DNA from: a virus
DNA length: 40,793 nt
Virus record (IMG/VR): IMGVR_UViG_3300020204_000143
Location: 1 to 40,793 of that record
Direction: 5' to 3' (one strand)
How positions within the stretch are numbered: the stretch's first letter is position 1; every line of letters begins with the position of its first letter. Below are positions 7,754 through 30,568 of the stretch, in pieces. The notes beneath the pieces were generated by a model. The model saw only the letters and a list, made by a program, of their open reading frames with translations, did no database searches and was not told the DNA's origin. The translations under genes and the position numbers were made by a program.

Positions 7754-10309
7754 TTAAAAGGAAAAAAACTTTTTAGCAGTTTGAGCTTCCGTACTAGCTT
7801 TTTCCCACTTTAAAGCTTTGTAGAAATCATCAATTTTGTTCTCTAATTCTGCTTTGTAAATCTCATCTCTATCTATATATTGCTCTACAAAATCCATAAC
7901 CTGTTTAGGGTCATTGTAATCTTTGAATGCTAATCCTTCTAATCCTAATGGGTTTGTTTTTAGATATACCCACTTTACTTTATCACCATCTCTGATTGGT
8001 TCGTGTTTATATGGACAGTTAAAGAATTTTAGTAATCGGTTATATGCTATTCCGGCTTTGACGTGTGCAGGTGTTCCTTTTTCAAAATCTGCAATTGATT
8101 TACCTTTAACCCAACTACCATTATCATATTTACTCAATTCTTTTATTGCCCCACCTTTAGCGATTTTATTTACAGGTAAAATAGCCATTGATTTTTTGAA
8201 GTTCAATAATGATTCATCTATTTCTGAATTAGATTTACTCATTAGAATATCTTTTAATAACTTAGCCATAAAGTCCTGAAATGCTTTGGGGAATGAAGAA
8301 CGAACAACATCTAATCCCTTAACATCTAACTTATCACAGGGGATACCATTTTTCAAAATCATCCATTGTGCGTATCTTTTCTTTGCTACCCAAAATCCAG
8401 CCTTGCTGATATACTCTTTCTTAATCTCAAAACGATGCTTATCTTTTGGAATAAAGAAAAACCTTTCTGCTAATAAATCATAAAACTTATTTAGGAATGA
8501 TTGAGTTTCTTCAGCAATAGTATTAACTTCTTCAGCCATTCTATTCTGGTCAAATTCTTTGTAGTTTGGATAACGATGCTTCACCAATGGTTCAGCCATC
8601 ATATAGATAGAATCAGTATCTATATAAACATTGTAGTCGTCTCTTGTTCCGAGTTCTTTCCAGTATTTGATGTTTGCCATTTCTGCTGTCTTTTTGATAA
8701 CAGTTTGGCCGGTGATTGTAACCGCTTCTGCATTATCAATATCATAAAACCTAAAGGCAGGCAGACCAAGAACACCATACATAGAGTTAAGAAGAATCTT
8801 CTGAACCAATTGTCTCTTTGCATAAAATTCGTATTTTTCTGTATCTTTTTCTTCTCCGTATTTTTTTTCTAACTTTCGGAATTCAACTCTTTTTTGAAAC
8901 CAATCATTTAGGATATCAGCAATAAGACCAGGCTTATCCTGATTATATAATACTCCATTTGCTGCTATTCCTAAATTACTATCTTTAATTACTTCTGATA
9001 ATTCAGTTCTATTGTATTCGTATGTACTACCCTCTTTACCAACTAATTTATAAACCTTATCTTCTCCTCTAATCCATTCTTCAGCATCCCAATTCTGAAC
9101 TTTACCAATCTTTGTTTCTGGTGAAATGTTTAATGTCATAATGATTGATGGATATAGTGATGTTAAATCCAAATCATATATCCAATCATACTTACCAACG
9201 ATGGGTTCTTTTACATATGCTCCAATAAACTTTTCTTCGTTGTTATCTCTAAGAGCTTGCATTCTTTCCTTCCTATCTTTTGGTTTGTTGGTTGCCACCA
9301 ATCTTTTCTTTTTCAGATATCCCAAACACGCCCCTTCTAACCACTTTGATGAAAAAATGTAATCTTCATATGGAACGTAGCCCGCGTGGCAAACTGCTCT
9401 ACATAATTCAATGAACTGAAGTTTGTTATCCATTGCTACAACCAAGTCCACATCGACAATGTTATATTCAATGAATTTTTCCAAATCAGTTTCAAATAGG
9501 TCATCTAAATTACCTTCATACTCTACTTTACCTCTACCCAATTCTTTTGTAGCGATATAGTTCAATGTATAAGATGATTCTAATGTGTATGTGTATGTTT
9601 TGTAAAGATTGAGATAATCTAAAATACTTACACCACCAAATTGCCATTTATCTCTATAAGGTGAATAGAATGTCTGTCCTACGGGCGATAATCGTTTAGC
9701 GTTACCCTCACCGCATATATTTTTGATACGATTATAAAGATACGGAATATCAAAGAAGTCGATGTTCCAACCTGTTAGAATTGTTGGATTAACTTCTTCG
9801 TAATAGTTTATAAAGGATTGTAATAGATTTCGTTCATTATCAAAGATATGAATCTTAGCCTGTCTACCATCTTTGTTAAACTGATTGGTGTTATTTTTTA
9901 TCTTTCTTTCTTTATCTAAAACGAATACATCGAATAATTTGGTAGCTCCATCGTATGCGGCAATTGATGTAATTTCGTTTTTAGCTTCTTTTGTGTTTGG
10001 TAGGCCTGATACCATTTCTACCTCAATATCAAATGTAAGAACTCTATGTCCATTTGATGGTAAATCACTATCGTATATATCAACTAAGACTCTCGTAGTT
10101 TCGGGTACATCCGATTCGAATAAATCTTCAGCTTCATCCTTTTCCCACTTAGATATTTTGGTCAATTTATCACCATACATTGAACGGAATTCTCCATATG
10201 GGTCTTTTTTATAAGCATATTTACGATAAGGAAAAGTTGTATATCCTCTTTCATCATCCCATAAATGTATCAGGTTTCTTTGCCTTTCGTAATAAATGTT
10301 TTGATACAT
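7754..10309 (-). CDS. 43: Family B DNA polymerase, T4 gp43-like
   Basis: An 851-residue replicative polymerase with proofreading. Exo I is TFDIEVE (D94, E96), Exo II is GWNIDFFD (180-187), and Exo III is YNIVDVD (282-288). The polymerase motifs are DLTSLYPSI (motif A, 381-389), KILLNSMYG (motif B, 504-512) and YIDTDS (motif C, 562-567). All catalytic acids are present. T4 gp43 is 898 residues, so the protein is complete. The C-terminal end KKFFSF resembles the clamp-binding tail of T4-type polymerases. It follows a glycosyltransferase gene with a one-base overlap and is followed by the clamp promoter. Confidence 0.97.
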   Translation of the reverse strand: MYQNIYYERQRNLIHLWDDERGYTTFPYRKYAYKKDPYGEFRSMYGDKLTKISKWEKDEAEDLFESDVPETTRVLVDIYDSDLPSNGHRVLTFDIEVEMVSGLPNTKEAKNEITSIAAYDGATKLFDVFVLDKERKIKNNTNQFNKDGRQAKIHIFDNERNLLQSFINYYEEVNPTILTGWNIDFFDIPYLYNRIKNICGEGNAKRLSPVGQTFYSPYRDKWQFGGVSILDYLNLYKTYTYTLESSYTLNYIATKELGRGKVEYEGNLDDLFETDLEKFIEYNIVDVDLVVAMDNKLQFIELCRAVCHAGYVPYEDYIFSSKWLEGACLGYLKKKRLVATNKPKDRKERMQALRDNNEEKFIGAYVKEPIVGKYDWIYDLDLTSLYPSIIMTLNISPETKIGKVQNWDAEEWIRGEDKVYKLVGKEGSTYEYNRTELSEVIKDSNLGIAANGVLYNQDKPGLIADILNDWFQKRVEFRKLEKKYGEEKDTEKYEFYAKRQLVQKILLNSMYGVLGLPAFRFYDIDNAEAVTITGQTVIKKTAEMANIKYWKELGTRDDYNVYIDTDSIYMMAEPLVKHRYPNYKEFDQNRMAEEVNTIAEETQSFLNKFYDLLAERFFFIPKDKHRFEIKKEYISKAGFWVAKKRYAQWMILKNGIPCDKLDVKGLDVVRSSFPKAFQDFMAKLLKDILMSKSNSEIDESLLNFKKSMAILPVNKIAKGGAIKELSKYDNGSWVKGKSIADFEKGTPAHVKAGIAYNRLLKFFNCPYKHEPIRDGDKVKWVYLKTNPLGLEGLAFKDYNDPKQVMDFVEQYIDRDEIYKAELENKIDDFYKALKWEKASTEAQTAKKFFSF

Positions 10310-12689: not shown

Positions 12690-12721
12690 CAAATATACTA
12701 AAAATAATTTAGATTACCAAA
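12690..12721 (-). promoter_or_regulatory. Bacteroidetes-type promoter for the DruA-like gene
   Basis: TTTG (12721-12718), a 20-base spacer and TATATTTG (12697-12690) on the minus strand. The -33 box lies inside the last codons of the Mom-like gene, within the small palindrome at 12716-12728. Only TAAT separates the -7 box from the ATG at 12685, predicting a leaderless message. Confidence 0.75.
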
Positions 12722-13517
12722 ATTTGGTATCTATTTCGGTTTCAGGTGCGATTGTTTCCCAATGCTGAATATCTTTATTGAAAGCACGGGTATCTTTTGG
12801 ATAAGGTCTGATTTCGTGTTTGAAAGATTTCATAATTGCTTTCTTTTCCTTCTTATCAGCTGTAATAATTTGTAGGTATCTATGCTTTGGTGGTTCTTCC
12901 CTTCTCCAAAATTCTTTATATCCTTGCTTTCCAATTTCTCTACGAAGATGTTCTAAGTTACCACTACCCCATTTTGTAAATACAGTCCTACTATGAATCC
13001 ATTTGTAAGGGTCATTTGAAAGGGAAATACCATAATTTGGCATTAACGCAATATCAGTATTTAACCCCTGATATATCCAATTAGTTGCTTGGTAAATACC
13101 ACCCAAATGCTCTTGTCCATTATCGGCATAAGAAATAAGTGTTTTGATTTCTTTATCATTTTCTCTGAACCATTTGAATGATTGCCCCATCGCATATGAT
13201 TCGATATTAGAACCATACCCATCATCACAATAAAGACGAGTTAATTCTAATACATTATCTTTTGTAAGTAAATCTGAAATAGAAGTTGCTGCTCTAGCTC
13301 CAACGGGAAATCCATAAACTATACATCCAATCAATTTGGTATCTTCACCCAAAGCATTGGTTGTATCCATTTTGTAAAAAATACCTAATGCATATCTACA
13401 AGCAGTCCAGGCGTGAGTATAGTGTTTCTTTACGATAATATCTTTTGCTACATCTTTACCAATTGGTGCAATAAATACTTTTGATGTATCGCAATAATTT
13501 TTACCTTCTTCTTTCAT
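12714..13517 (-). CDS. Mom-family DNA adenine hypermodification enzyme, paralogue A
   Basis: A 267-residue GNAT-fold protein of the phage Mu Mom type. Mom converts adenine in DNA to a N6-carbamoylmethyl derivative and blocks many restriction enzymes. Visible features are the basic start of the fold with HY (32-33), KLIGCIVYG (61-69), VLELTRLY (89-96), ISYAD (128-132) and the signature EHLGGIYQATNWIYQG (136-151). The C-terminal 100 residues are basic (RREEPPKHRYLQI) and may bind DNA. It aligns closely over its length with the neighbouring upstream gene, four bases away, so the two arose by tandem duplication. Substrate specificity is unknown. Confidence 0.85.
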   Translation of the reverse strand: MKEEGKNYCDTSKVFIAPIGKDVAKDIIVKKHYTHAWTACRYALGIFYKMDTTNALGEDTKLIGCIVYGFPVGARAATSISDLLTKDNVLELTRLYCDDGYGSNIESYAMGQSFKWFRENDKEIKTLISYADNGQEHLGGIYQATNWIYQGLNTDIALMPNYGISLSNDPYKWIHSRTVFTKWGSGNLEHLRREIGKQGYKEFWRREEPPKHRYLQIITADKKEKKAIMKSFKHEIRPYPKDTRAFNKDIQHWETIAPETEIDTKFW

Positions 13518-13521
13518 AACC

Positions 13522-14277
13522 TTAATTTACTGGTTCTAATTTATGTATTTCTTCTACAAATTCCTCGCTCACTTTTGGATATTTTAGTGATGGGTATTTT
13601 AAATTTTTTAATAACTTTTTTCTTTCTTTTCCGTTAATCAAAATATAAATATAACGATGTTTACGTGGTTCTTTTTTAATCCAAAATGGTGATGTTACCA
13701 TTGTTTGAATTATCTTTGGGTCATTCGTTCCATACTTCACATATGAAGTTCTACTATGATGCCATTCATCAATTTCACTCCATTTGAAAGACCAACTATC
13801 GTTTGGTCGGATTCGATTACCTTGATATATCCAATTCGTTGCCTGATATACAGTTCCTAAATGTCCTGCTTTCGGGTCTGAATAAGATACTAATGCTTTG
13901 ATGTGTGGTGCGTTTTCTCTTAACCATTGGAATGTTTTACCAACAAACCAACTCTCAATATTACTACCATACCCATCAAATACAAATAAACGGGTAAGTT
14001 CTAAAACTTCCGTTCTATCTAATGTTTCACAAATAGATGCGCCAGAGTGTCTACCCACCGGGTCTCCATAACATGCTACACCAATAAGTTTTTCGTTTAC
14101 ACCACCAAAGAATTTATGTTCATCGTTTGATAAATAAAACAATCCAATCGCATATGATACTTTTGTCCATATACCACTATAATGATTGTTTACGATAATA
14201 TCCTTAGCTACGTCTTTACTTATTAATCTAATAGAAAGTTTGGATATATCACAATATTGTTTACCATCTACTTTCAT
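13522..14277 (-). CDS. Mom-family DNA adenine hypermodification enzyme, paralogue B
   Basis: A 251-residue Mom-like protein. It shares with paralogue A the opening KDVAKDIIV, HY (32-33), KLIGVACYGDPVG (63-75), VLELTRLF (91-98), GYGSNIES, VSYSD (130-134), GHLGTVYQATNWIYQG (138-153), HSRTSYVKYG and the basic EPRKHRYIYI. In the motif before the signature it has SYSD where A has SYAD. All core Mom positions I can see are kept in both copies, so neither looks like a pseudogene. Divergence between the copies suggests different sequence contexts or substrates, or a hetero-oligomer. It follows a 52-residue ORF after four bases. Confidence 0.85.
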   Translation of the reverse strand: MKVDGKQYCDISKLSIRLISKDVAKDIIVNNHYSGIWTKVSYAIGLFYLSNDEHKFFGGVNEKLIGVACYGDPVGRHSGASICETLDRTEVLELTRLFVFDGYGSNIESWFVGKTFQWLRENAPHIKALVSYSDPKAGHLGTVYQATNWIYQGNRIRPNDSWSFKWSEIDEWHHSRTSYVKYGTNDPKIIQTMVTSPFWIKKEPRKHRYIYILINGKERKKLLKNLKYPSLKYPKVSEEFVEEIHKLEPVN

Positions 14278-20023: not shown

Positions 20024-21382
20024 TTATCCCATATTATCCACATATTTTTTATGTAATAATTTCTTCTCTAAATTTTCTCCGTTTTTAGATTCTTTTTGTG
20101 CGATTATACCATCTGCCGATGTTGCTGCAAATACATCCATAACTCCGTGAAAAGTATCAATCTTTGCCGGAAATGTCATACCATCAGGTCCGAATCTATT
20201 CTTTACAATATGGATACGGCCTGTGTTGGATAACTTATCCTTTGTCTTTCTACTAACACTCATAATAAAGTCAGCCGTTTGTACTTTTTTATAAGAATCA
20301 CCAACCGAATCGGCTTGTATAACTTCGTGGTCAATAGCTGCTCTATTTGTTTGTGTGGCTGTCCAAATTGGAATACCTGTTTCACCGCTCAATCCTCTAA
20401 GTTCTTCATAGATACCACCTAATTCGGCATATAAACCATCTCTACCTCTATCGGAAGATTTTAACAAATCGGCATAATCTATGATAATTAAATCGGGACG
20501 ATATCCCATTGTTTTTAACTTCTCAATATGAGCTGATAGAGTTTTTGCTGATGCGATTTGTGGTGGGTAATATTTAATACGAACTCTACCTCGTGTATTT
20601 TTAATCTTACGAATAATTTCATCCTTCTTTTGTTTGTGTTCCGATGTTTGAATACCCGTGAGGATTGTAGTATATCTCTGTCCAACGTATGATTCAGATA
20701 ATTCCAAAGTATAATGTAAAACATTCATACCCTTTTGAACTGCTGAACAAGCTATCTTAGATAAGAACCAACTCTTACCAATACCTGATGGTGCCATTAC
20801 AACTCCTAATTCGCCTGGTCCTAATCCACCATCCATTAATTCATCGATAACACTCCAACCAGTAGAAACTGAATTACGTTTTACCTCCTCCATAATAGAT
20901 TCAAATTCAGTAATGTAATCTAATCCCAAATCATTTTCAACGCCAACTTTAGATGCGGCGGTCATCGTATCTATGATTTTATCATATTGGCCTGCTTTGA
21001 GTAATTCTACTGATTTTAAAAGTGCATCTTTTACTTTTTGGTTTTTAGCAAATGTTAGATATTCTTTTTTAACGTATTGTAAATCTTCTGAACCAATCTG
21101 TAAATATACACTCTTTAATTGCTCAATTGTGGTTTGCTTTAGAATTTTATCCTCAATATCTCCAACTTTAATTTTAAACACTTCCATTGTAGGAACTGCT
21201 TTATATTCGTTGAAATAGGACAATATTTCTCCAACAATCCATTTATTGGCTTCTGATTCAAAGAATGTTGGTTTGGTGATTTCGTTTACTTGTTCTAAAA
21301 ACTTAACATCCGTTATAAGTGAAGCAACAACTTTGGATTGATACGATTGACCATATTTTACCAATGTATCTACTGCTTCCAT
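20024..21382 (-). CDS. 41: Replicative DNA helicase, T4 gp41/DnaB-like
   Basis: A 452-residue hexameric helicase. The N-terminal 150 residues are helical, as in DnaB/gp41. The RecA-like core starts with STGWSVIDELMDGGLGPGELG, Walker A is APSGIGKS (197-204), Walker B is LIIIDYADLL (near 300), and the arginine-rich end VKNRFGPDG matches motif H4. Length is close to T4 gp41 (475). It unwinds the fork 5'-to-3' ahead of the gp43-type polymerase. No gp61-type primase gene is in the window. The start abuts the small 75-residue gene with a one-base overlap. Confidence 0.92.
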   Translation of the reverse strand: MEAVDTLVKYGQSYQSKVVASLITDVKFLEQVNEITKPTFFESEANKWIVGEILSYFNEYKAVPTMEVFKIKVGDIEDKILKQTTIEQLKSVYLQIGSEDLQYVKKEYLTFAKNQKVKDALLKSVELLKAGQYDKIIDTMTAASKVGVENDLGLDYITEFESIMEEVKRNSVSTGWSVIDELMDGGLGPGELGVVMAPSGIGKSWFLSKIACSAVQKGMNVLHYTLELSESYVGQRYTTILTGIQTSEHKQKKDEIIRKIKNTRGRVRIKYYPPQIASAKTLSAHIEKLKTMGYRPDLIIIDYADLLKSSDRGRDGLYAELGGIYEELRGLSGETGIPIWTATQTNRAAIDHEVIQADSVGDSYKKVQTADFIMSVSRKTKDKLSNTGRIHIVKNRFGPDGMTFPAKIDTFHGVMDVFAATSADGIIAQKESKNGENLEKKLLHKKYVDNMG

Positions 21383-21633: not shown

Positions 21634-21948
21634 TTATCTAATAACCATTAATAATTCTGATTCTCTTAATAAGATGTATTTATTTCCACCTACTTTAATT
21701 TCAACTCCTTGATGGTATGGTGGTAAAATTACTTCATCACCTACTTTTACTGTCATTGGAATTGAAATGCCGGCTTGAGTGTACAACCCATCACCAACTG
21801 ATTCTACTTTTGCTCTTTTTACATCTTCGGATTTTACACTATCTGGAATAATGATACCACCGGCAGTTTTAGATGCTACTTCTTCTAATTCACTCAATAG
21901 GACTCTATCTCCTAATGGTTTTACTAATTTGTCTGCTATTTTTGCCAT
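21634..21948 (-). CDS. GroES-type co-chaperonin
   Basis: From the ATG at 21948 the protein has 104 residues; a longer frame from 22008 would overlap the FEN gene and adds nothing like GroES. The family pattern is clear: KPLGDRVLLSELEE, then a mobile loop ASKTAGGIIIPDS, then KVGDEVILPPYHQGVEIKVGGNKYILLRESELLMVI. The mobile-loop IIIP contacts GroEL. As with T4 gp31, it probably replaces host GroES to fold the major capsid protein. No GroEL gene is in the window. Unlike gp31, it looks like an ordinary bacterial GroES. Confidence 0.93.
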   Translation of the reverse strand: MAKIADKLVKPLGDRVLLSELEEVASKTAGGIIIPDSVKSEDVKRAKVESVGDGLYTQAGISIPMTVKVGDEVILPPYHQGVEIKVGGNKYILLRESELLMVIR

Positions 21949-21958
21949 AACTTTTTTT

Positions 21959-23011
21959 TTAAAATTTTGATAAATGTGAAAATGTTGATTGTAACCAATC
22001 CAATACATTTGGGAATGAGTCTAACATACGATGTTTTAATCCTAATTTAAGAAACTCTTGCTTCTCAAACTTTGTTATTGGTTCATCGTATCTATCCATA
22101 ATTTTCATTCTAAGGTTTCCGCTGAACTCTGGTTCAGATAATTGCATCAATTTACGATTTCTTTCGCAGATTTCCAAATTATTAAGAAATAATTCATGTG
22201 CTTTTACTTTTTTATCTAAACCGTTTATATACTCAACCATTGTTTCGGTTGTATGTATCTTTTCTTCAGTAAGTATTGGAAAGGCTTTTATGATTGTTTT
22301 TGCGCCTAATCCATTAATACCTTCAATATTATCAGATTTATCGCCATCAATCATTCTGAAATTAATAAAATTGTGTGGGTGAAATCCATATTCTTCTACA
22401 ACTTCGTTTATATTATAAACTTTCTTTTTAGTTGGAGAATATACAGATACATCTTTATTTACTAATTGTAAAAAATCTTTATCGGAACTCATAATAATAA
22501 CCTTTTCATCTTCTTGTCTGAGTTGAGTTACCACATATCCAATAACATCATCGGCCTCAATACCATCGTAAACCATTAAGGTTACGGGTAGGGCTGTTAA
22601 TAGTTCGGCTAAACCAACCATCTGCCTTCTCATCGATATCTGCTCATCTTCGGGATTCATATCCACAGTGATAGCACGATTAAGGCGGATTTTGTTTTTA
22701 GCTCTATCAGCTTTATAACCTCCGTAAATTTTTTTTCTACTTTCCGCTCCGCCCTTACCATCAAATACAATGATACATCGGGTCGGATTTAAAGTACGAA
22801 TAGCATAACCGATACTTTTTAAAGTACCGACTATGCCTCCGATATGGTCACCATTATCGTTTAGATTTGGTGCGGTTGACCAAGAACGAATGAAGGTATT
22901 AAGACCATCAATAATTAGGGTTTTGGAATTCTTTTGTAAATTGCCAAAACTCTTATGTTCTTCATCTATTTGTTTTAGTATATCTAAATACTTCTTATTA
23001 ATCTGACTCAT
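21959..23011 (-). CDS. rnh: 5'-3' exonuclease/flap endonuclease, T4 RNase H-like
   Basis: A 350-residue FEN-family nuclease with a PIN-like core. Metal-binding acids occur in LIIDGLNTFIR (28-38), IVFDGKGGAESRKKIYGGYK, GIEADDVIGYV, and MSSDKDFLQLV. The helix-3-turn-helix segment MIDGDKSDNIEGINGLGAKTI binds double-stranded DNA with a metal or K+ ion. T4 RNase H removes RNA primers and flaps from Okazaki fragments. The start overlaps the uvsX-like gene by 14 bases, within a recombination/replication operon. Confidence 0.92.
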   Translation of the reverse strand: MSQINKKYLDILKQIDEEHKSFGNLQKNSKTLIIDGLNTFIRSWSTAPNLNDNGDHIGGIVGTLKSIGYAIRTLNPTRCIIVFDGKGGAESRKKIYGGYKADRAKNKIRLNRAITVDMNPEDEQISMRRQMVGLAELLTALPVTLMVYDGIEADDVIGYVVTQLRQEDEKVIIMSSDKDFLQLVNKDVSVYSPTKKKVYNINEVVEEYGFHPHNFINFRMIDGDKSDNIEGINGLGAKTIIKAFPILTEEKIHTTETMVEYINGLDKKVKAHELFLNNLEICERNRKLMQLSEPEFSGNLRMKIMDRYDEPITKFEKQEFLKLGLKHRMLDSFPNVLDWLQSTFSHLSKF

Positions 23012-24107
23012 TTGCTACATCCGTTGTTTCATCAACTTCCTCTGAAGCGGAATTTGTTTTATATTGTAGAATACATACCTCACATATCTTACGATAAATT
23101 TGGTCTTTTAAATCTTCGTTTTTAAGGATATCTGGAAAATCTTTAGATTGGAATTTAATAACTTCGCCAGTATCAGTGTCGATATATTCATACCAAGCAC
23201 CACCTTGCTTTACCAATTTATTATCTTTCATAACTCCTAACCAAGAACCATAATTATCAATACCTCTATCAAAGAAGATATTAAAATCTGCGTGTCTCAA
23301 TGGTGGTCCTAAACGATTTTTAATAACTTGTGCTCTTACTTTAATACCAACAATCTTATCACCTACTTTTAGTTGTCCCATAGATTTCAAACGGAATCTA
23401 ACAGAAGCATGAAATGCTAATGCTTTACCGCCCGATGTTGTCCAAGGGTCACTAAATGCCATTGCGTTCATCTTTTGACGAAGTTGGTTAGTAAACACTA
23501 AACAAATGTTTTGTCTACCAATCATATTCGTAATCTTTCTCATCGCTTTGGAAATAATGATTGCTTTATCAGTTGCATAACCATCTTTATCGTAATCAGC
23601 TTCTAACTCTTTCTTTGTAGATGCTGCTGCTACTGAATCTACTACGATAGTTACCAGTTTATTCTTATCGCCTGTTCTAACTTTCTCAATGATTGTTTCA
23701 CAAGCTTCAAAAATACCTTCAACCGTATCTACTGAAACGTATAGTAATTTTGAAATATCAACACCAATTGCTTCCAAAAACTCCCTATTAACGGCAGTTT
23801 CGGTATCAATCAATACGGCTACTCCACCTTTCTTTTGTGTTTCAGCTAACAGATGGGCGGAGAGCAGAGATTTTCCACTCTGCTCTAAGCCCGTAATTTC
23901 TGCTATACGGCCAACTGGCAAACCACCATAAGGTCTATTAGAAACTGCTACATCTAAAAGAGCGTTACCCGTAGATACCCAATCTTTTACGTTAGTGGGA
24001 GCATCGCCTCCACCATCCGTAAGGAAGTATGCAATTCTACCATCCTTATTTTGTTTGTTTAATGAATCAGCGAGGATGCTCGCTAAGTCCTCTTGTACTT
24101 TGGCCAT
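22998..24107 (-). CDS. uvsX: RecA/UvsX recombinase
   Basis: A 369-residue strand-exchange ATPase. Walker A is GLEQSGKS (73-80), in which the usual GPExSGKT proline is replaced. Walker B is VTIVVDSVAA (about 150-159). L1/L2-type loops follow (MIGRQNICLVFTNQLRQKM, then DPWTTSGGKALAFHASVRFRL). The GGKAL-F-AS-R sequence is a RecA landmark, so it is nearer to bacterial RecA in the loops than is T4 UvsX. It would load on gp32-type ssDNA and drive recombination-dependent replication. The C-terminus is acidic, as in RecA. Confidence 0.93.
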   Translation of the reverse strand: MAKVQEDLASILADSLNKQNKDGRIAYFLTDGGGDAPTNVKDWVSTGNALLDVAVSNRPYGGLPVGRIAEITGLEQSGKSLLSAHLLAETQKKGGVAVLIDTETAVNREFLEAIGVDISKLLYVSVDTVEGIFEACETIIEKVRTGDKNKLVTIVVDSVAAASTKKELEADYDKDGYATDKAIIISKAMRKITNMIGRQNICLVFTNQLRQKMNAMAFSDPWTTSGGKALAFHASVRFRLKSMGQLKVGDKIVGIKVRAQVIKNRLGPPLRHADFNIFFDRGIDNYGSWLGVMKDNKLVKQGGAWYEYIDTDTGEVIKFQSKDFPDILKNEDLKDQIYRKICEVCILQYKTNSASEEVDETTDVANESD

Positions 24108-24121
24108 AATGTAACCTATTA

Positions 24122-24958
24122 TTAATTGTTAAATAAATCATCAAATGCTGATGCTACATCATCTTTTTGTGTAGATTTTTTAGGAGCTTCTTTTTCCCAA
24201 GGAAGGTCACCAATTTCTTGTGTACCACCCAAATCAACGGATGGTTGTTTTGATGCCTGTTTTGGAGCTTCTAATTCTTCTACAACCTCATCAGCGCCCG
24301 TAGTTGCTGAACCTGGGTTTAACCAATTTTCCAATACACCTTTCAATTCTGAATATGATAATTCTGAATATAATTCGGTGATGTTCTTTTGATTATCCAA
24401 TAAAGATTGGATTTGTTCTGCACTCTCTGCTAATTTAGATTGTGAAGGTTTTACTCTGATAGTTGTTGTTGGATAAGCTGCATTTGAATCTTCAGCGGAT
24501 TGAATTTCTACAACGATATCTCTACCATTCATTGGGTCGGTGATATCTCCGTAATCCGGGTCAGCGATATATCCTAAGATATCCTGATAAACCGTCTTAC
24601 CAAATCCCCAAAACTTAACACCTTCGTTCTCCTTACCTCTTATGATAACTGGTGCGAAAGTTCTCAATTTTGGCTCCATCTTCTTACCTGCTTTCCAATC
24701 ATCGGTATCGCCTGTACGTTTAAGTTTTTCAGCGAACTCAACAATTGGGTCAGGTCTGCCGAATGATGCAGGACTCAAATAAGTTTTGTTGTTAATGTTG
24801 TAGTGAAAGAATAATTCAATGAAAGGAATATCTTTATTGAATTTGTAGGGAACTAATCTGATTTGATGTTTTCCCGGTGTTGGCTTCCAAAGTGAATCTG
24901 ATTTTTTGGAAGTGTTTTGTAACGAGTTGAATCTCGATAGGGCAAGTTTAATGTCCAT
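24122..24958 (-). CDS. 32: ssDNA-binding protein, T4 gp32-like
   Basis: A 278-residue protein with gp32 layout: a short basic N-terminus for cooperativity (DIKLALSRFNSL), an OB-fold core (KHQIRLVPY ... RTFAPVIIRGKENEGVKFWGFGK, about 30-180) and an acidic, disordered tail ending DDVASAFDDLFNN. The cysteine/histidine zinc site of T4 gp32 is not visible. The acidic tail normally recruits replication partners. The protein coats ssDNA for the helicase, polymerase and UvsX. It has a strong promoter and a leader of about 95 bases with possible stem-loops, which could serve gp32-type autoregulation. Confidence 0.88.
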   Translation of the reverse strand: MDIKLALSRFNSLQNTSKKSDSLWKPTPGKHQIRLVPYKFNKDIPFIELFFHYNINNKTYLSPASFGRPDPIVEFAEKLKRTGDTDDWKAGKKMEPKLRTFAPVIIRGKENEGVKFWGFGKTVYQDILGYIADPDYGDITDPMNGRDIVVEIQSAEDSNAAYPTTTIRVKPSQSKLAESAEQIQSLLDNQKNITELYSELSYSELKGVLENWLNPGSATTGADEVVEELEAPKQASKQPSVDLGGTQEIGDLPWEKEAPKKSTQKDDVASAFDDLFNN

Positions 24959-25772: not shown

Positions 25773-26189
25773 TTAAAACGTATCAATATTTAATTCCGAT
25801 ACGTTCAAGCTTTTGTGAACTTTTGTAGGAATCTTTTTGTATCCGTAATTAGATGTGGTAATAATACAATTTTTGAATTCATTCCAATCTAATTGATATG
25901 TTGTATCTAATTGTCCGCCAGTCTTAGCTTTGATAACCTCATTTAACGCATTGATTGTATAAATGGTATTTGATTGCTTTTTTCTATGTACCAATATAGT
26001 TTTCCATTGTGAGTTTACAGGTGCAGAACCTTTCTCAACATTATAAGTTATAAATAAATCGTTCTCTATTAACTTACTTTCTAACACAAATATGTTTGGA
26101 TTTATAAGGGTATAGTTTTTTAAGATAAATTCTAATGATGTATCTAATTCATTTCTATATGTGAACAAACATAAAAGTTGTGTATTCAT
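25773..26189 (-). CDS. Hypothetical protein
   Basis: A 138-residue protein from the ATG at 26189, one base after the preceding stop; a longer frame from 26219 would overlap that gene. It starts MNTQLLCLFTYRNELDTSLE and continues with strand-like stretches (NIFVLES, LFITYNVE, TILVHRK, CIITTSNYGYKK), so it is probably an alpha/beta protein. No motif is recognised. The promoter that follows it marks a transcription boundary, so it is the last gene of the operon containing the two large unknown proteins. Confidence 0.65.
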   Translation of the reverse strand: MNTQLLCLFTYRNELDTSLEFILKNYTLINPNIFVLESKLIENDLFITYNVEKGSAPVNSQWKTILVHRKKQSNTIYTINALNEVIKAKTGGQLDTTYQLDWNEFKNCIITTSNYGYKKIPTKVHKSLNVSELNIDTF

Positions 26190-26190
26190 T

Positions 26191-28437
26191 TTATTTTTTC
26201 TTTTTATCACACGATACAATATGTGATGGATTTACGTTATTAGGAGTCATCCATATTTTATCCTGAAATTTACTGAATTTAAATCCAGGATTGTATGACC
26301 AACTCATACAACATTTATTAACAATACCATCTAACTCTTCGTTTTTGACTGCTCCAGTTCTTTCGTTAACTGTACTTCTTTCGTTAGAAAAATAATTAAA
26401 ATCCGTATCATTATTATTAATTGTTTCTATACTTGCTCCAGCTAATGTGTGCAATCTTAATAATTGTTTATATTCCTTTTTTTCTTTATCATTCAATGGA
26501 CCAACTCCGTTTCTCATTGCCGTTTGAAAAGCACTTTCCGATTGCTTTTCACCTTGTGCCATAATACGATTGTATTCATCTTTTGTAATTATGTTATTTT
26601 TTAAGGCCCAATTCAGATGAAACATTATCTGCTTTTCTTTTTTCACCATATCTTGTACCGATGGTGGATATTTTGTATCTTTATTTCTACCATATACAAA
26701 TTGATGTATGCTCAATAAACTATTTAATGCAACCCTTGTTTCAGGATGTTTATATTCAGTTTGTTCTACTTTGGAATCACTTTGTCCGGCGCCTCCTTCT
26801 GCAAATTTTACACTTGAACCACCTACCAATACCAATGATGTTTTAATCATTTTAAAATTATCGGCAATCGATTGTGCTATATTTCCTGATTTAGGAAATT
26901 TAAATTTTGGTTCTTTAAATGCGATTACATCTGATACTTTAAATGTTTCCGATGAAGGTAAAAACGCTTGATATCCTCTGCCAATCATCTTTGAAAATAC
27001 AATTACCTCCAACAAATCGGGAACCGCTGTTCTAAAATCTTTATTTAAAGTCATTTCACCCAATAAATCATCCAATTCTTTTTCAAAATTTGGATTACTA
27101 CCATTTTGGTTAAATTTTATAGATTTAAATTTATCCATAATGATTTTTTGTTCTTTTGTTACTCCACCACTTTCTTTAAATAATTGTTCAAATCTTTTTG
27201 TGTATAAATTTTTTATATTATCAAATGTAGATTGTCTACCTTCAGGTGTGGATGTATCGCCAAAATCAACTATTTCAAACTTTCCGGCACTCTTCATCAT
27301 TTCCAATTGCTTATTGTATCTTTTCAATGATGCAATTGTAGTTTTTGCTTCAACTTCGGCATCCGGTACTCCATTTTTCTTTAAAAGTAATGTCAACTCT
27401 TTTAATTTCGGTACTGGTACCGGTTTGTGTTTCACTCCATCGATTATTATAGAACCATCCTTTTCTTCTTTAATTAAGACATCTTTACGTGCTGGAGTAA
27501 CTTTATTTGGAACTGCTTGTTTTTTACCCATAGCCCCTTCCTGTGCTTTAGTTGATTGTAATCCAAATGATTGAGTAAGTTGTTTTAATTCTTCTCTTTT
27601 TGAGCTAGGGAATGTTACTTTTTTATGTTTCTTAAAATTTCCAGGAGTTGCATTTGCTATATATAATGTAGCTTCACCGGATTTGTCTTTAAATGCTACA
27701 AAATTCTTTAATAATTCTTTTTCTTGTGCGTTAACCTTTTGGCCTGATATCATTTTTTCAAACCCAGAAAGTAATGTTTTAATTCTTTTTTCTCCTAAAC
27801 TATTTTTTAATTCAGATGAAAAATCTTTTTTAATAATTTGAGCCAAAGCGGCTGTTCTTTTTGATACATCTTCTGGCTTTAGATTTAAATTAGATGTAGT
27901 GGTTGTTTCTGGTTCAGAATCATTACCAAACACATTACCACGTTTTATCGTTCTAGTTGGTGTTGGGTTTGCTACTTTTTTTTGTTGAATTTTTTTTTCT
28001 GCATCTGAAACTTTAACCACATTTGGGGTTGGTTGTTTTTTTGATTGCGGTGCTACTTTTTTATTTTTTTCAGCTTTTTCTTTTGCATTTAATGCTCTCA
28101 AAGAACCCGAATCGCTTTTGTGTGTGATTTCACCTTCAGGTTGTTTAGAATAATAACCACCACCTCTATGATAATATCCTTTAAATTTAGAAGATTCACC
28201 AGCTTTAGGGTTAGATGCTGATTTTGGTTTAATTTTATTAAGAACCTTTTTAGCGGGAGCTTTTGGTTTAGATTTTGCTTTTTCTCTTAACGCATTAAGA
28301 GCTTGGGAATTGTATATACCATTTTCTTCTAAGATGGTAGTTAATTCATCTAAGTGTTCTTCGTTTGTTAAATCAACAATTCCAGTCGGAATTCTGTAAC
28401 TTAATTCCAATAATATTTCTTCGAAATTTGGAGTCAT
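26191..28437 (-). CDS. Large phage protein with Lys-rich linker, function unknown
   Basis: A 748-residue protein. Residues 1-55 form a compact domain (EEILLELSYRIPTGIVDLTN ... LTTILEENGI) that I have seen on other phage proteins. Residues 55-180 are a Lys/Pro/Ser-rich, probably disordered linker. The remainder, about 180-748, is a mostly helical globular part with VGGSSVKFAEGGAGQSDSK near 545-565 and a Cys-Cys pair in NKCCMSWSYNPG near the end. No enzyme motif could be fixed. The stop lies one base before the next gene. Neighbours on its upstream side are structural-looking, so it may be a virion or packaged protein. Confidence 0.65.
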   Translation of the reverse strand: MTPNFEEILLELSYRIPTGIVDLTNEEHLDELTTILEENGIYNSQALNALREKAKSKPKAPAKKVLNKIKPKSASNPKAGESSKFKGYYHRGGGYYSKQPEGEITHKSDSGSLRALNAKEKAEKNKKVAPQSKKQPTPNVVKVSDAEKKIQQKKVANPTPTRTIKRGNVFGNDSEPETTTTSNLNLKPEDVSKRTAALAQIIKKDFSSELKNSLGEKRIKTLLSGFEKMISGQKVNAQEKELLKNFVAFKDKSGEATLYIANATPGNFKKHKKVTFPSSKREELKQLTQSFGLQSTKAQEGAMGKKQAVPNKVTPARKDVLIKEEKDGSIIIDGVKHKPVPVPKLKELTLLLKKNGVPDAEVEAKTTIASLKRYNKQLEMMKSAGKFEIVDFGDTSTPEGRQSTFDNIKNLYTKRFEQLFKESGGVTKEQKIIMDKFKSIKFNQNGSNPNFEKELDDLLGEMTLNKDFRTAVPDLLEVIVFSKMIGRGYQAFLPSSETFKVSDVIAFKEPKFKFPKSGNIAQSIADNFKMIKTSLVLVGGSSVKFAEGGAGQSDSKVEQTEYKHPETRVALNSLLSIHQFVYGRNKDTKYPPSVQDMVKKEKQIMFHLNWALKNNIITKDEYNRIMAQGEKQSESAFQTAMRNGVGPLNDKEKKEYKQLLRLHTLAGASIETINNNDTDFNYFSNERSTVNERTGAVKNEELDGIVNKCCMSWSYNPGFKFSKFQDKIWMTPNNVNPSHIVSCDKKKK

Positions 28438-29289: not shown

Positions 29290-29321
29290 TAAATATAAAT
29301 TTTTATTGGATTACAACCAAA
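29290..29321 (-). promoter_or_regulatory. Variant promoter before the Gly-rich protein gene
   Basis: TTTG (29321-29318), a 20-base spacer and TATATTTA (29297-29290) on the minus strand, so the last G of the -7 box is changed to A. The same bases also fit the ATATTTATA[GC] motif found before two virion genes. It lies over the last codons of the polymerase gene and leaves a leader of about 30 bases. Confidence 0.5.
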
Positions 29322-30568
29322 TCATCGTAATTAGTTCCTTCATATGCTCGGATAGGGAATCCTCCTCTTTCTAATATTGATTTCAAATCTTTTAAAACCC
29401 ACTCTTTTTCGGCAGGATGTACATCAATTAAGAACGCATCGTATGTATATAGTATCATTTTTGACCTACTACCATCCAAACACTTCAACACTTCCCCAAT
29501 CTTCTTATAATTGATTTCAGTTTCCAATGCCTGTAATAGATAGTTAAATACCTTTTGTTCAGTCGCACCTTCGATTCGTTGGAATGGGATTTTTCTTTTG
29601 TAAAGTGGAGTCGTTAAAGCGCCCGAAATTACAAACTTTTGGTAAACGGATTGTATATACTCATCCACCTTTTGAAAAAACGGAATCCCTTTGGCGAATT
29701 CATCCAAACCACCATAAAGATATTTGAATGATAACGCCTTTGATTCTTCGGTTGTAACCCCATAATATTTTGCTAAATGTTCGTGCGCAGTTTCACCTTC
29801 GGGAAATACATAACCCACCATCTTTCCAATGATACGGATGTGATAGGATTCATAATCAAATTGTAATAGAGTTCCCCCCTTAAATCTACTTACTATATTT
29901 TTTCTACTACCATCGGATTTATTCATAGCAGCCCAATTGACCCCTAAGTGTCTATTGGATGGTCTACCCGTTACCGTATATGGGTTGTATTTGGTGTAAG
30001 CAAACCCTTTGGGCAGGTATTCTTTATTGAAGTGAAATCTATCAATAAAATTTTCCTCATCGACCTTTACCCCAGCCCCTTCCAACCTTCCCAATGTTAG
30101 GATTGAATCTGAATATACTCTATACCATTCTTTAATATCTGATATTATTGGTATTCTTTTTAGTACTTCGTACCATCTCATTAAGGGTATGCAATCGTTA
30201 AGGTATTTAAAATCGCTTCTATACCCTCTATAAACCTCTTCAGCGAACTCTTCTAAATTAAATGGTTTCCCATACTCTTCAAAGTAAACATACTCATAAT
30301 CGAGTCCTTTACTACCTATATAGCGATTCCCATAAACCAATGTGTTTTCATTAACCAGTAATCTAAGTGCTGCCATTTTACATTGTTTGGCATCGATGTG
30401 GTTAAAATTTATAAGATAATCGGATTTTTCAGTTCTAAGATAAACAAACGATATGGATGTATCGTATTCATGTGCTTTAGGTGAACTCCATACAGGCACC
30501 ATCAATACCACTTTTGGGCTTAATTTGTAAAAGGATAGGAGAATATCGTTGCTCTCTATTAGGTTCAT
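29303..30568 (-). CDS. Compact family A DNA polymerase-like protein lacking most of the thumb
   Basis: From the ATG at 30568 the protein has 421 residues. Family A landmarks are LGRLEGAGVKVD (159-170), TGRPSN (200-205), motif A QFDYESYHIR with D238, motif B K277...F281...Y285 in KALSFKYLYGG, and motif C YTYDAF with D377. Both metal-binding aspartates, K758-, F762- and Y766-equivalents (E. coli Pol I) are kept; the R754 position is T and HDE is YDA. Only about 30 residues separate the first two landmarks, against about 130 in Pol I, so the thumb is essentially missing. The N-terminal 155 residues look like a degenerate exonuclease domain without DxE. It has its own promoter and sits between virion-type genes. 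Confidence 0.8.
   Translation of the reverse strand: MNLIESNDILLSFYKLSPKVVLMVPVWSSPKAHEYDTSISFVYLRTEKSDYLINFNHIDAKQCKMAALRLLVNENTLVYGNRYIGSKGLDYEYVYFEEYGKPFNLEEFAEEVYRGYRSDFKYLNDCIPLMRWYEVLKRIPIISDIKEWYRVYSDSILTLGRLEGAGVKVDEENFIDRFHFNKEYLPKGFAYTKYNPYTVTGRPSNRHLGVNWAAMNKSDGSRKNIVSRFKGGTLLQFDYESYHIRIIGKMVGYVFPEGETAHEHLAKYYGVTTEESKALSFKYLYGGLDEFAKGIPFFQKVDEYIQSVYQKFVISGALTTPLYKRKIPFQRIEGATEQKVFNYLLQALETEINYKKIGEVLKCLDGSRSKMILYTYDAFLIDVHPAEKEWVLKDLKSILERGGFPIRAYEGTNYDDLVVIQ

Follow-up and report, generated by a model that had tools for sequence, protein, structure and literature searches.

The family A DNA polymerase divPolA1 was described by Yutin et al. in 2024 (Virol J 21:200, PMC11348598), in a paper that lists 14 genomes. 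Another truncated member of the family, CcPol, has a shortened thumb and makes primers together with a small ssDNA-binding partner (PMC7581432, PMC10061031). Here we examine a locus in a viral stretch of 40,793 nucleotides (the window; positions 1 to 40,793 of IMG/VR virus record IMGVR_UViG_3300020204_000143), where an open reading frame on the minus strand (29303..30568, with its ATG at 30568 and its stop at 29303) encodes a family A polymerase of 421 aa that has no thumb. The open reading frame, a profile match to Klenow, an AlphaFold model and 257 relatives all identify this protein, which is divPolA1 and thus already published. An earlier sequence-only reading had pictured a thumbless enzyme in a phage that already has a family B replicase; the thumbless, conserved clade stood, while the novelty that it implied did not, given the 2024 description. 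What our analysis adds to divPolA1 is the extent of the family, a thumb gap that is constant within each clade, an invariant His, a small companion protein (p148) and a primase that is usually encoded as well. The phages concerned form a widespread aquatic group that maintains a thumbless polymerase next to another one.

Domain layout and loss of the thumb

The Pfam DNA_pol_A profile matched the protein at 20 of 34 bits, which is below the Pfam cut-off, and a PHROG DNA polymerase family matched it at 3e-9. A profile built from 53 members of the family could be aligned to E. coli Pol I across motifs A, B and C (E = 4e-7). These three motifs with both catalytic aspartates, the mark of family A, are present as the sequence-only reading had it, and by homology and fold the protein stays classed in family A despite the loss of the residue equivalent to E710.

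Three distances between motifs had been called short, and all three are. Counting both end residues, 40 residues separate the equivalents of E541 and R668 (E163 to R202), as opposed to 128 in E. coli; motif A to motif B (D705 to K758) takes 40 residues instead of 54, and motif B to motif C (K758 to D882) 101 instead of 125. The first of these intervals begins at the palm-entry helix and motif (residues 148-170; 30059..30127, minus strand), in which TLGRLEGAGVKVD pairs with VLSRIERNGVKID of E. coli Pol I in the alignment, and it spans the place of the missing thumb (residues 171-199; 29972..30058, minus strand). An AlphaFold model built from a 51-sequence alignment (mean pLDDT 93.7, pTM 0.90) has an intact palm, finds its closest solved structure in Klenow (E = 4e-17), and places a single 8-residue helix where the thumb would be, after the palm-entry helix (148-164) and before the TGRPSN strand. 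As the N-terminus, folded alone, is exonuclease-like, a thumb hidden there is ruled out, and together with the short helix this indicates that the thumb is absent rather than moved. Neither a thumb elsewhere in the chain nor a full-thumb homologue with a frameshift at this point among the relatives, either of which would have told against the earlier reading, was found.

The N-terminal domain (residues 1-147; 30128..30568, minus strand), when folded alone, matched mostly 3'-5' exonucleases of the DEDD type, among them Nibbler, EXD2, Rrp6, RNase D and Pol I; the matches are weak but consistent, the best having an E-value of 1e-3. In the family alignment, the strand of exo motif I carries no conserved acid. 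The domain is thus a degenerate exonuclease, in keeping with the earlier remark that the exonuclease acids are gone, and the enzyme is predicted to have no proofreading activity. Pol I becomes less processive when its thumb is truncated (Minnick 1996, as cited in PMC10061031), which makes distributive behaviour of a polymerase with no thumb plausible.

Relatives with the same deletion were found in four immuto phage records, in Microcystis phage Mel-JY01, in a 484-kb uncultured phage and in hundreds of IMG/VR contigs. Together with the window protein, the 257 relatives (one of them incomplete) make up a set of 258 sequences, common in aquatic viruses, that falls into three well-supported clades (A, B and C) and one singleton. 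The distance between the equivalents of E541 and R668 is nearly constant within each clade, at 40-41 residues in A, 42 in B and 24 in C against 128 in E. coli. All 258 sequences share this deletion together with the catalytic residues, which is far beyond chance. Comparison with close relatives gave a dN/dS of 0.10-0.14, with low values for the N-terminal as well as the polymerase part, as would be expected of an enzyme under strong purifying selection and not of a relic. A pseudogene or an assembly artefact is ruled out by the hundreds of intact relatives and by the dN/dS of about 0.1. When the LR756508 protein was used as a query, no additional viral contigs were recovered, and bacterial genomes gave only two relatives, which lie on short MAG contigs that are probably phage.

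Catalytic residues and the steric gate

The motifs follow one another along the minus strand. TGRPSN (residues 200-205; 29954..29971) holds R202, the counterpart of R668, which is invariant in the family except for one incomplete row. Motif A (FDYESYHIR; 29834..29860) contains D238, equivalent to D705, and H243, equivalent to E710, both found in 258/258 sequences; motif B (29714..29740) runs from K277 to Y285 and covers the equivalents of K758, F762 and Y766; motif C (YTYDA; 29435..29449) contains D377, equivalent to D882, and A378, equivalent to E883. Across all 258 sequences, the counterparts of D705, K758, F762, Y766, Q849 and D882 are identical. Other positions have changed, and the sequence-only reading correctly picked out two of them: the R754 equivalent is T in the window protein and variable across the family, and the E883 equivalent is A here and in 257/258 of the family.

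Taken with the loss of thumb and exonuclease, the replacement of E710, R754 and E883 might suggest a polymerase fold that no longer catalyses and serves instead as a binding or assembly factor. We consider this highly improbable, as the equivalents of D705, D882, K758, F762 and Y766 are invariant in the 258 sequences, and a PolA in which Ser replaces E883 is active (Tt72, PMC9324360). With both catalytic aspartates invariant and a dN/dS of about 0.1, the protein is probably an active enzyme.

The position overlooked in the earlier reading is that of the steric gate. In Pol I, E710 keeps ribonucleotides out by blocking their 2'-OH and also pairs with Y766, and it has been called universally conserved (PMC4882331) or highly conserved (PMC9324360) in family A. 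Of this reportedly universal pair, the thumbless family retains Y766 and has His for E710 in 258/258 sequences. Some of the family scans had used a motif A pattern that contains this His and could have biased the count, and for that reason a scan was run with a C-terminal fragment that lacks motif A; His was found in 80/80 of its sequences, which removes the bias for clade C, and other search patterns are present in 60 sequences of clade A and 72 of clade B. Glu is retained at this position (DYESLE) in the full-length PolA of the immuto group. The main text of Yutin et al. (PMC11348598) makes no mention of the E710 position. In Taq, the steric-gate change E615G is part of variants that use rNTPs (PMC4215692), and the invariant His may alter the selection of sugar or base pair in the thumbless enzyme. 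An unchanging His at a supposedly universal position of family A offers a testable lead on a natural change in sugar selection and primer dependence, and since the enzyme is small and also present in the cultured phage immuto, it can be tested directly.

A conserved replication module and possible roles

Gene neighbourhoods were compared in 84 loci that extend 8.5 kb or more downstream, counting genes on the same strand. In all three clades, the thumbless gene heads a conserved replication module, whichever type of replicase the phage has, and baseplate-like genes lie upstream. In the window, where all of these genes are on the minus strand, the module includes p148 (25773..26219; unannotated, downstream in 84/84 loci), a single-strand DNA-binding protein (24122..24958; PHROG 1192 and 224, 84/84), a UvsX/RecA-like recombinase (22998..24107; PHROG 97), a separate 5'-3' exonuclease of the Pol I type (21959..23011; Pfam 5_3_exonuc_N, E = 6e-33, 83/84), which bears the Pol I 5'-3' exonuclease domains, and a DnaB-like replicative helicase (20024..21382; PHROG 19, 82/84). 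UvsX is labelled in all qualifying loci of clades A and C and was recognised by clustering in clade B. Between the exonuclease and DnaB genes, the window also has a GroES-like co-chaperonin (21634-22008, minus strand; Pfam Cpn10).

The regular replicase is encoded elsewhere in the genome, as PolB in clades A and C and as a full-length PolA in clade B. The family B replicase that the sequence-only reading saw in this phage is indeed there: a polymerase of 851 aa at 7754..10309 on the minus strand (PHROG 262, E = 3e-183; Pfam DNA_pol_B), accompanied in the window by clamp loader genes. Where PolB or a full PolA is present, the thumbless polymerase is ruled out as the main replicase. Four contigs of 101-145 kb (G006, G007, G002 and G018, the contigs of L114, L125, L060 and L188) revealed neither PolB nor a full PolA nor PolC, and they may be incomplete or may hold an unrecognised replicase; the family C polymerases reported by Yutin et al. 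(PMC11348598) were not found in the contigs checked. Two PolB genes have an unusual layout. In LR756508.1 (the L003 record; 259363-267281), PolB extends over two open frames of 1022 and 625 aa, the matches lying about 4 kb apart, possibly an intein, an intron or a split gene, and in G016 (the contig of L301; 53555-55532) it matches two separate open frames of 610 and 306 aa, possibly through a split gene, an insertion or a frameshift. The window also carries two tandem genes at 12714-14277 (minus strand), both of the Mom-like DNA modification family (PHROG 1384).

As a tentative reading, which we favour while giving it somewhat less than an even chance, divPolA1 is an accessory polymerase of large T4-like phages that fills short gaps, without proofreading, during lagging-strand synthesis or recombination. 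The enzyme would work beside the main replicase and do the polymerase part of the job of Pol I, with the 5'-3' exonuclease supplied by a separate protein. Synthesis would be in short tracts, of low processivity and without proofreading, closing the gaps that remain once primers are removed, on the lagging strand or at forks that recombination has started, and the SSB or some other partner, perhaps p148, would hold the DNA in the stead of the thumb. Gap filling is favoured by the invariant catalytic residues of the 258 sequences and their dN/dS of 0.10-0.14, by the lack of a thumb and the dead exonuclease-like N-terminus, by a module conserved in three clades with an adjacent exonuclease that has Pol I 5'-3' domains, by a regular replicase elsewhere whose type varies (PolB or full PolA), and by the usual presence of a separate DnaG-type primase. 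Against it, T4-like phages usually handle Okazaki gaps with the replicase alone. The module, moreover, is also compatible with priming or recombination roles, and plain gap filling leaves the E710 replacement unexplained.

The main rival, itself on the unlikely side, is that the enzyme makes primers de novo as does the PolA-SSB primase CcPol-MP, with the SSB or p148 providing single-strand binding. With CcPol as precedent, primer making by a thumbless polymerase is possible: loss of the thumb would leave room for the initiating triphosphate, and rNTPs may be able to pass the altered steric gate. The long last thumb helix, the proposed blocker of that triphosphate, is absent from the model, the E710 equivalent is His throughout the family, SSB and DnaB are both in the module, and p148 is an always-present small companion. 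Several observations stand in the way. CcPol itself retains E710 and uses dNTPs, p148 has neither a detected OB fold nor a known relative, and a DnaG-type primase was found in 14/19 records, with zinc finger and toprim-like motifs in both of the primases that were read. Since most large contigs encode such a primase, the thumbless polymerase is unlikely to be the sole one.

The closeness of UvsX brings up translesion or repair synthesis, error-prone through the loss of proofreading, thumb and E710. The proofreading acids are indeed gone and Pol I E710A has lower fidelity (PMC4882331). However, the gene keeps a fixed slot in the core replication module of three deep clades and is not found in a variable region, nor is there any specific lesion signal, and we regard this role as quite unlikely.

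The companion p148 is a conserved, unannotated protein with the motif HRKKxxNTIYTINALNE. It occurs in just six of 50,697 phage records, the very six in which the thumbless polymerase is present, and it is a candidate partner of the polymerase or a marker of the lineage. The six best matches of the phage SSB fall in the same records, so the co-occurrence may mark no more than a discrete lineage, and the link between p148 and the polymerase may reflect shared ancestry only. No relatives or OB fold were detected for p148, a profile search of the PDB giving chance-level matches only. A bolder proposal, which we hold to be unlikely, makes p148 a dedicated subunit of the thumbless polymerase, which with its His gate would begin or mend short strands at the phage fork from ribonucleotides or a mixture of nucleotides.

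Comparison with described polymerases

With the divPolA1 of Yutin et al., the window protein shares the truncated thumb, the dead exonuclease, the palm with conserved catalytic aspartates, the replication genes downstream and the regular DNA polymerase elsewhere in the genome, and it did not differ in any of the features tested. It forms one alignable family with the immuto protein (gene 1, QQO91919; tblastn E = 8e-31, 29% identity over 69% of the query). The divPolA2 of barbaviruses is likewise a second, thumbless PolA in phages with PolB, but its N-terminal domain differs and its gene neighbourhood is variable (PMC11348598).

The Klenow fragment of E. coli Pol I has the same order of exonuclease-like domain, palm, fingers and palm, with the same motifs A, B and C. 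Relative to Klenow, about 90 thumb residues are missing from the window protein, the fingers are 14 residues shorter and the B-to-C distance 24 residues shorter, and the exonuclease acids, E710 (now H), R754 and E883 (now A) are lost.

CcPol-MP and the other PolA-SSB primases (Bebel 2020, Rice 2023; PMC7581432, PMC10061031) also combine a truncated family A polymerase with a nearby helicase, and the S. aureus CcPol likewise has a partial exonuclease domain and a shortened thumb. In CcPol-MP the small partner, encoded next to the polymerase, is an ssDNA-binding OB-fold protein; the small companion in the phages, p148, is always present and has no known relatives. CcPol belongs to SCC-type elements, which have a D5/Rep-type helicase and lack any other primase; in contrast, a DnaG-type primase is usual in the phages of the window family, and the thumb that is shortened in CcPol is gone here. 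Finally, the PolA-SSB primases retain E710 (E174 in CcPol) and F762 for dNTP use; the window protein shares F762 but has His at the gate.
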